From: Geodermatophilus chilensis
GTDB taxonomy: Bacteria > Actinomycetota > Actinomycetes > Mycobacteriales > Geodermatophilaceae
Length of the DNA stretch: 34,158 nt
Direction: 5' to 3'
Assembly: GCF_002802985.1 (NCBI RefSeq)
Contig: NZ_NVPT01000038.1
Coordinates: 1 to 34,158 of the forward strand
Shown piece after piece: positions 1 to 34,158 of this stretch. The notes beneath the pieces were generated by a model. It saw only the letters and a list, made by a program, of their open reading frames with translations, searched no databases and had not been told where the DNA came from. The translations under genes and the position numbers were made by a program. Numbering within the stretch: position 1 is the first letter of the stretch; each line of letters opens with the position of its first letter.

Positions 1-123
1 TCGCGATGGTGGACATCTGTGTGGCGCAGCTCCCTGTCTAGTCCTGGCTGGATGTGCTCGGAAACGTCGGTGCGAACGGCCAGGTACAGGATGTGGACGG
101 TACCTCACTTGTAGTGTTGTTCG
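1..123. other. Unplaced sequence upstream of adapter
   Basis: This stretch has visibly lower GC than the rest of the window and no recognisable coding or RNA feature. It lies on the far side of an apparent sequencing adapter (124-193), so it probably does not belong next to the FtsB-like gene. I could not match it to a known vector or adapter. Treat it as assembly debris until shown otherwise. Confidence 0.55.
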
Positions 124-193
124 CACGATGCGACGACAACCGGACTCTCCACGTAGGGAGTCGTCGGCAGCGTCAGGTGTGTATAAGTGACAG
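124..193 (+). other. Degraded Illumina P5-index-Nextera read-1 adapter (artefact)
   Basis: Positions 161-174 match the 14-base Nextera read-1 tail exactly. Positions 175-193 match the 19-base Tn5 mosaic end with two mismatches (177 and 188). The 8 bases at 153-160 sit where the i5 index belongs. Positions 124-152 align without gaps to the 29-base P5 sequence at about 20 of 29 bases. The order and spacing (29+8+14+19) are exactly those of a dual-index Nextera fragment, so this is library sequence and not genome. The orientation puts the genomic insert to the right, starting near 194. The adapter sequences are recalled from memory. Confidence 0.93.
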
Positions 194-194
194 G

Positions 195-734
195 TCCGGA
201 CGTCGGCGCGCCACCGGGCGGCCGCTGTCGGGTGCGGCGTCCCGCCCCGTGCCGGCCGGCTCCCGCTCGGGTGCGGGCAGCCGGCCGGAGCCGAAGCGGG
301 CCGTCCGCCGCACGCCGCGGACGGCGTCGGCCGCCGGTGCGCCGCGGCGTCCACTGGTCACCGGCCGCGCGGTGCTGCTGGCCGGGCTGGTGCTGGTACT
401 GCTGCTGACCCTGGCCGGTCCGGTGCGCCAGTTCCTGGCCGGCCGCGCCGAGCTGACCCGGCTGGCCGCGGAGGGCACCGCCCTCGACCAGCGGGTCGAG
501 CAGCTGGAGGAGCAGCTGCAGCGGCAGGCCGACCCCGACTACGCCGAACGGCAGGCCCGCGAGCGGCTGGCCTACGTGCTGCCCGGTGACCGGCTGGTGG
601 TCGTGGTCGACGGCGAGGCCGTCGAGGGGGACGCCGGCACGGTGCCGGAGCCCGCGGACGGCGACCTGCCCTGGTACGAGGCGCTGCTGCAGTCGGTCGC
701 GGTGGCCGACGGCGACGAGGAGCCCAGCGAGTGA
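195..734 (+). CDS. FtsB/DivIC-type septum formation initiator, 5' end uncertain
   Basis: This is a small bitopic division protein of the FtsB/DivIC family. It has a basic, Arg/Pro/Ala-rich cytoplasmic head, then one membrane segment (about bases 375-435, residues VLLAGLVLVLLLTLAGPV), then an extracytoplasmic coiled coil rich in Leu/Glu/Gln (LDQRVEQLEEQLQRQ), then the family signature around ARERLAYVLPGD and an acidic tail. Known members form the FtsB-FtsL-FtsQ complex of the divisome. The frame is open upstream, but everything before about 194 is adapter, so the true start is either lost or is GTG at 249. The next gene overlaps it by four bases (GTGA). The neighbours DUF501 and Ppx are the usual actinobacterial partners, normally with enolase upstream, and enolase is not present here. 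Family call fairly sure, start unsure. Confidence 0.82.
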   Translation, partial: SGRRRATGRPLSGAASRPVPAGSRSGAGSRPEPKRAVRRTPRTASAAGAPRRPLVTGRAVLLAGLVLVLLLTLAGPVRQFLAGRAELTRLAAEGTALDQRVEQLEEQLQRQADPDYAERQARERLAYVLPGDRLVVVVDGEAVEGDAGTVPEPADGDLPWYEALLQSVAVADGDEEPSE

Positions 735-32986: not shown

Positions 32987-33058
32987 CATTGCCGGGGTTC
33001 CTCATGCATCGCGGGTCCTGCAGGACCGGCAGTGCACGAGGAAACCCGGCAATGCGCT
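32987..33058. repeat. 72-base palindromic repeat, copy A
   Basis: This is an imperfect palindrome centred between 33020 and 33021 (27 of 32 positions pair in each arm). It is about 65 of 72 identical to 34076-34147. It sits between the convergent ends of phoH2 and the AbiEi-like gene and reaches that gene's stop codon, so here it can act as a bidirectional terminator. Confidence 0.85.
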
Positions 33059-33996
33059 CAGACGCGCCGGCGGCGTCCCCGAGCGCGAGCGCGCCGCACC
33101 CGGTCGCCGACCACCGTGCCGGGCACGAGCTCGGGCCAGATCCAGCGCACCACGCCCCAGTCCTCGTCGCGGATGGCGTCCTCGCGGCGCTTCTCCTCGA
33201 AGACGGCCTCCCCGGGGTCCTGCCCTGGCCGCAGGGCCCGGCCGTACTTGACCCGACCGTCGAACTCGCCAACGACGCGCTCCTCCTCCCACGCGAAGTC
33301 GACCCGCGCGAGCTCCCGCCCGGACGCCGAGTGGATGACCCGCTGCAGGGTCGACGGCGCCAGACCCAGCCGGTGCAGCAGGACCCGGCTGCGGCTCTCA
33401 CCCACGCTCTCGCTGCGCGCGTCGGCCATGTCGAGGGCCCGGGCGGCGACTCGGCTGCCGCGCGTCCCGGTCAGCTCCTGTGCCCGGTCGGCGAGGAGCG
33501 GTTGCTGCACGATCCCGAGGTGCAGAGCGGCGTCGAGGACGACCACGGCCGGCTCCAGCGGCAGCGAGCGGGCCAGGTCGAGCGCCGTCCGCACCGGATC
33601 GGTGACGGCGAGACCCTCCACCTCCACCTCCACCACCTCGTGGTCGGCGAGGCGAGCCACGTGGACGCGCAGGCAGCGGTCCACCTCGCTGGACGCCGGA
33701 GGGCGACGCGTGACGTGCACGCGGTCGAGGCGGACGCCGCACAACGGGAGGCCGTGGAGCACGGCGGCCGACTGGTGGCTGACCACGGCGGGACGGCGCA
33801 GCGCAGCCACGGTGGCGGAGACGAGCAGGCGGTGGCGCGCCTCGTCCGTCAGTGCACCGGTCCCGGTGAGGTAGGCGCCCCGTCGGAGCCGGGTGAGGTC
33901 CCCGCCCCGCACGTGCCGGGCGAGTTCGTCGTCGCTCCACCCCTCGGCGACGGCGAGTCTCCGCAGGACCAGGCGGTCGAGGCGATCGGTGTCCAT
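33058..33996 (-). CDS. AbiEi-like / DUF559-type endonuclease-fold protein
   Basis: This 312-residue protein has an N-terminal winged-helix-like section ([24 protein letters not shown]) resembling the AbiEi-type domain found in type IV antitoxins and related proteins. A middle region follows ([38 protein letters not shown]). The C-terminal PD-(D/E)XK nuclease-like domain related to DUF559/Vsr contains [29 protein letters not shown] and KYG, with the D-x(n)-E-x-D pattern of the active site. This architecture is very common in actinobacteria in many copies per genome, and its function is unproven. ATG 33996 begins the conserved part. It is bracketed by two palindrome copies and could have moved with them. 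No separate AbiEii toxin gene is adjacent in this window. Confidence 0.85.
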
Positions 33997-34060
33997 GCCG
34001 CCACCGTGGCCGGAGGACCACCCGGCCCACCGCGCTCGGCCCGATCGGTGGACAGCGGAA

Positions 34061-34158
34061 CGCCTGTGGACAGCGCACTGCCGGGGTTCCTCGTGCATCG
34101 CGGGTCCTGCAGGACCCGCGATGCACGAGGAACCCCGGCAGTGCGCTGTCCACAGGCG
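34061..34158. repeat. Perfect 98-base palindrome at the window end, contains repeat copy B
   Basis: The last 98 bases are a perfect palindrome with 49-base arms centred between 34109 and 34110. The inner 72 bases (34076-34147) are copy B of the repeat at 32987-33058, and the outer 15 and 11 bases extend the symmetry to the last base. A natural palindrome extended by a fold-back at the contig edge is a likely explanation. It lies upstream of the AbiEi-like gene. Confidence 0.88.

Follow-up and report, generated by a model that had tools for sequence, protein, structure and literature searches.

The window, by which we mean the whole 34,158-base stretch of DNA that was analysed, comprises all of contig C307 (1-34158) in a 5.51-Mb, 374-contig draft genome of a Geodermatophilus-like organism, and its first base is therefore a contig end. 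A DivIC/FtsB-like gene lies at this end and is followed by a DUF501 gene, for which the best match among named genomes is in Geodermatophilus sp. DSM 45219 (94%); in the open reading frame that starts at base 54 the DivIC domain (PF04977) occupies only residues 109-186. The GC content is 0.56-0.62 in 100-base intervals up to base 200 and 0.73-0.87 in those of 201-2000, and the leftmost bases contain a series of elements from a sequencing library (Table 1). Bases 1-193 are confirmed to be a worn copy of a Nextera adapter together with probable machine noise, and not bacterial DNA. An earlier note on this DNA had offered an adapter interpretation, which is supported by our analysis, but described the adapter as lying inside the contig; this needs correction, since the window coincides with C307:1-34158 and the adapter sits at the contig end.

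Table 1. Features at the left end of the window, with the observations on which each assignment is based
Feature	Position	Strand	Basis
Sequence beyond the library molecule; read noise of late cycles most likely (inferred)	1..113	-	No source match; GC drop
T10 spacer slot of the flow-cell P5 oligo, degraded	114..123	-	5/10 T, weak alone; genome-wide T excess
P5, 20/29	124..152	-	Ungapped match; 56 P5-type ends in the genome
i5 index N505 (GTAAGGAG), one mismatch	153..160	-	Genome consensus and published index table
Nextera read-1 adapter head, 14/14	161..174	-	Sequence match
Tn5 mosaic end, 17/19	175..193	-	Sequence match; base 193 is the last artefact base
First true genome bases	194..257	+	64-base exact overlap with contig C349
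DivIC/FtsB-like gene (PF04977), 5′ end lost at the contig end	194..734	+	Domain match; C349 locus

Adapter elements and the native locus

P5, index, adapter head and mosaic end follow one another in this order and without gaps. The match to the Nextera read-1 adapter that the earlier note had recognised at 161-193 does extend to 31 of 33 positions, with both mismatches falling within the 19-base mosaic end, and the gapless P5 match, which had been put at about 20 of 29 bases, has exactly that score. The 8 bases between them, previously taken as an index, read GTAGGGAG and can now be identified, because among the eight i5 words compared N505 matches at 7 of 8 bases and the runner-up at 3 of 8. 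The claim that such a spacing excludes chance also holds. At up to three mismatches the adapter 33-mer has a single site in the window, 100 shuffles yielded no site, and its score of 31 compares with 19 for the second-best placement on either strand; the P5 score of 20 at position 124 is the highest of all placements in the window on both strands, the next being 18, and, of 200,000 random 29-mers generated to the composition of bases 1-123, not one scored 20 or more against P5 at a fixed place. To the earlier note we add the name of the index, the fit of the bases preceding P5 to a T10 spacer (which is weak in C307 alone) followed by read noise, and the observation that many contig ends are affected.

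Bases 1-123 gave no match in phages or E. coli genomes, and a comparison with 1.27 Mb of DNA yielded only chance-level matches of 16-17 bases, no better than those of a reversed control. A plasmid search with bases 1-193 returned 10 records, and the 8 matches listed are confined to the adapter part, extending over 146-193 or less. Among the matches listed are NZ_MH643786.1 and NZ_CP040712.1; one plasmid match (146-193) spans the end of P5 through the index slot, and another falls under an annotated hypothetical protein.

Contig C349, reversed, is identical to the window over positions 194-257 and departs from it exactly at 193/194, where the mosaic end stops. C349 encodes an enolase (Enolase_N and Enolase_C) adjoining the junction, with its stop codon 60 bases upstream of window position 193, and the locus formed by joining C349 to the window aligns with Geodermatophilus sp. 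DSM 45219 at 90.8% over 1,702 bases. When this joined locus was used as the query, the junction was crossed in one piece, and well across, by 9 of 16 Geodermatophilaceae loci; a tenth (L041) crosses it by 5 bases, four align on both sides in separate pieces, and the remaining two (L032 and L043) have too little upstream DNA to judge. The window alone gave no alignment to the left of position 194 at any of the 16 loci, the leftmost starting at 196. The comparison with the homologous locus of relatives that the earlier note had proposed thus finds no match to bases 1-193, and C349 supplies different upstream DNA; judged by sequence, the true upstream DNA of the window is that of C349, with its enolase gene. 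The earlier conclusion that bases 1-193 should be removed therefore stands.

Downstream of the enolase stop codon, the first GTG in frame in the uninterrupted locus is found 44 bases before window position 194. A GTG with the same two residues after it (V-S-A) also occurs in DSM 45219 (L029) and in L041; in three other relatives, L030, L031 and L035, the motif used did not pick up the gene. From this conservation the GTG in C349 is the likely true start of the DivIC/FtsB-like gene. With a start upstream, those at 54 and 177 are false, as had been suggested earlier, both lying within the artefact, and approximately the first 15 codons would be missing from the window. The divIC-like gene accordingly needs to be re-annotated with its start in C349.

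Adapter tails on other contig ends

Sequences resembling the mosaic end at up to three mismatches occur at 141 sites in this genome (77 forward and 64 reverse), and a reversed control gives none in either orientation. Among the best 100 of the 141, ordered by mismatches and starting at two, all 53 forward sites lie within the first 197 bases of contigs, and of the 47 reverse sites 42 could be placed, all within the last 201 bases of contigs, with five not placed. No such site was found further inside 36 whole contigs. The adapters at contig ends point outward, and both P5-type and P7-type tails are present.

The systematic sample began with 121 contig ends, almost all of them taken by choosing one contig in five or one in ten; the 16 that consisted only of N were dropped to leave 105, and setting aside four from C307 and C349 left 101 readable ends. 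Twenty-four of these carry adapter (10 P5-type, 2 P7-type and 12 too short to tell). Altogether 103 of 185 scanned ends carry adapter, which is not a rate because many of these ends were chosen from hit lists; 56 are P5-type, 23 are P7-type, and 24 contain little beyond the mosaic end. At the P5-type and P7-type ends the mosaic end with a read-1 or read-2 head, respectively, stands directly against genome sequence.

The indices are constant across these ends. The consensus is GTAAGGAG (N505) at the P5-type ends and CTAGTACG (N702) at the P7-type ends, with 342 of 440 and 136 of 176 bases, respectively, agreeing with it. The P5 slot of the 56 P5-type ends matches at 940 of 1551 positions and the P7 slot at 392 of 507. 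On the Illumina flow cell these oligos carry 10 T on their 5′ side, and the corresponding slot has T at 321 of 505 places in P5-type ends and at 172 of 210 in P7-type ends; in the 49 ends that extend far enough, it contains a mean of 6.7 T in 10, and the three 10-base slots before it contain 3.6, 3.1 and 3.0. Identity to the adapter declines outward: it is 0.93 in the read-1 head and only 0.61 by the P5 slot. All of these alignments were made ungapped, and none needed gaps. Counted up to the last base of the mosaic end, tails reach at most 201 bases, from which we conclude that the reads were longer than this, if each tail represents one read.

Twenty of the 24 short ends start (or, when reversed, finish) exactly at a mosaic end with at least two mismatches and have no head, as in C40, C60, C100 and C150 at bases 1-19; plain read-through does not account for these headless mosaic ends, and a second trimming step is perhaps their cause. 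In the 80 ends without recognised adapter the first 100 bases are low in GC (0.67-0.69, versus 0.72-0.75 beyond base 125), and some of these ends (C40e, C70e, C135e and C197s) have T runs or index-like remnants, suggesting that the true share of artefactual ends is probably above 24/101.

A native, adapter-free locus is available for the C307 end in C349 and in the relatives. For the adapter ends of C83, C358 and C327 an overlapping neighbour contig was sought in the same genome and none was found, so that only one of the four ends, that of C307, has one. The 80 bases beside the adapter have a higher GC content than contig interiors (0.789 versus 0.742) and greater folding stability (mean -21.0 versus -18.0, p = 2e-4), but there is no excess over their own shuffles (p = 0.61, against 120 of 300 interior stretches). 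The additional stability thus reflects composition and not structure, and hairpins as the cause of the contig breaks were rejected.

Probable escape from trimming and the origin of the tail

None of the 103 aligned mosaic ends has fewer than two mismatches, and 75 have exactly two, although a plain binomial with the same mean would predict about 26 with one mismatch or none. By contrast, 36 of the 78 adapter heads beside mosaic ends, which lie farther away from the insert, are perfect. The error per base over these 78 ends is 0.075 in the head, about half of the 0.142 in the mosaic end, a low rate that is partly favoured by the selection of ends, in which head and mosaic end were scored jointly. 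The absence of any mosaic end with fewer than two mismatches alongside so many perfect heads makes the survivors look like escapees from a trimmer tolerant of one mismatch, and we infer a program that searched for the mosaic end and accepted one mismatch. Read 2 is usually the poorer of the two reads and should be the one that more often escapes trimming. The P5-type is the commoner kind of end, by 56 to 23 over the P7-type in the chosen set, which is biased by its hit lists (two favour the P5-type and one the P7-type), and by 10 to 2 in the systematic sample, which is small.

A screen for the exact mosaic end would miss all 103 aligned ends, and an intact head is present in only 36 of 78; such tails would be found by a search that allows mismatches and is anchored on contig ends and N gaps. 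Genome ratings do not reveal the fault, since about a quarter of the sampled ends (24/101) carry tails in a genome rated 99.98% complete and 0.13% contaminated.

We are almost certain that untrimmed adapter read-through of a short Nextera insert explains bases 1-193. A library molecule with a short insert would have been sequenced by a long read, probably read 2 from its orientation. On the minus strand, this read would have run past the insert, first into the mosaic end and the adapter head of read 1, next through index N505 and P5, and finally across the flow-cell oligo's T10 spacer, beyond which bases 1-113 are presumably noise. The two errors in the 19-base mosaic end would have caused the trimmer to miss the adapter, and the read, retained by the assembler, would have become the left end of C307.

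The same order of adapter elements would be expected if a Nextera end had been ligated or PCR-joined to unrelated DNA in a library chimera, with bases 1-123 being real DNA from elsewhere, and these bases do have a moderate GC content and are not homopolymeric. They have no source in phages or E. coli genomes, however, and only chance-level matches in the 1.27 Mb compared; moreover, the T excess ahead of P5 and P7 in 49 ends is as expected from a read into the flow-cell oligo, and adapter identity falls outward from head to P5, such that we regard a chimera as very unlikely. Insertion of Tn5, natural or made in the laboratory, ahead of the divIC-like gene could account for the direct contact between genome sequence and the 19-base mosaic end, which is a Tn5 end, but the remaining elements are P5, a library index and a Nextera head, and we know of no transposon that carries these. 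Neither a transposon body nor a second end is present beside the mosaic end, where the read-1 head, index and P5 are found instead and the contig ends at base 1; with 141 mosaic-end-like sites, all placed ones at contig ends, and an uninterrupted locus in C349, an insertion is extremely improbable. Chance resemblance in native GC-rich DNA might be entertained for P5 alone, with its 20 of 29 matches. Its probability becomes negligible when the shuffles are combined with the order of the elements, the index and the genome-wide repetition, and it is refuted by the junction with C349.

Related genomes, published comparisons and the opposite contig end

At up to three mismatches the adapter 33-mer is present in 5 of 112 family genomes, with 36 copies in the genome described here, 19 in G002, 8 in G083 and one each in G084 and G086; it is carried by 8 of 396 genomes drawn from the phylum, this genome included. 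Read by eye, the index is close to TATCCTCT (N503) at the G002 ends and to AAGGAGTA (N507) at the G083 sites. The mosaic end has two mismatches at all 8 G083 sites and at least two at 18 of the 19 G002 sites, with one mismatch at the other. Seven of the G083 sites are inside a 4.73-Mb contig, C4 (L250-L256), and each has N upstream, at a distance of 51-169 bases from where the mosaic end finishes, as a single N at four sites and as 10 N at three; we read these as scaffold gaps, although the single N could be ambiguous bases. At one of these sites (L255) the far side of the N run resembles, by eye, the read-2 adapter.

The presence of the same structure with other indices in G002 and G083 indicates that the fault arises across libraries and can be buried in scaffolded chromosomes. 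Exact copies of the 33-mer in G084, G218, G293 and G464, and single-mismatch copies in G086 and G475, indicate that other pipelines leave other remnants and that the two-mismatch rule is not general. On balance we favour the view that there is a largely unscreened class of "near-miss" adapters, which with at least two mosaic-end errors would pass default trimming and later screens, seed contig ends, become buried beside gaps on scaffolding, end up within near-complete reference genomes and give rise to false gene starts.

Adapter contamination at contig ends in microbial genome databases has already been published (Moeller et al. 2024, PMC11536531), and the artefact is of this known kind. In that paper the adapters are likewise located at contig beginnings and ends, in the expected orientation, and break contigs. 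The count reported there is of a 12-base TruSeq word (by exact matches, according to a figure legend) in MGnify assemblies, whereas the copies described here are Nextera adapters, degraded to at least two mosaic-end mismatches, with traces of index, P5/P7 and T10, and of a design without that TruSeq word. In a limited library, and with the wording used, we found no publication on degraded or read-through adapter copies in assemblies, and those inside the 4.73-Mb contig of a relative are the most useful addition to known contamination.

The individual elements have published counterparts. The index table in PMC4712552 lists GTAAGGAG as 505 and CTAGTACG as 702, used there with other primers, and the oligo table in PMC5861650 contains P5, N505, the read-1 head and the mosaic end, with 10 extra N after the index. 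Nextera dual-index library ends have the same element order as the window (P5, 8-base N505, head, mosaic end), from which the window copy differs by substitution errors, most of them in P5. PMC11123353 describes P5- and P7-like primers on a solid surface to which its authors had added a 5′ tail of 10 T.

At the opposite end of the contig, window positions 34061-34158 form a perfect 98-base palindrome of two 49-base arms without a spacer, which is a member of a dispersed palindromic repeat with a second copy (90%) at 32987-33058. Its outermost bases could be an assembly fold-back. Among the matches listed, positions 33623-34140 align in one piece at 71-85% in 5 congeners, and we therefore take the palindromic end as real DNA. 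The repeat has matches in 36 of 108 family genomes (E <= 1e-5, with at most 8 candidates scored per genome).
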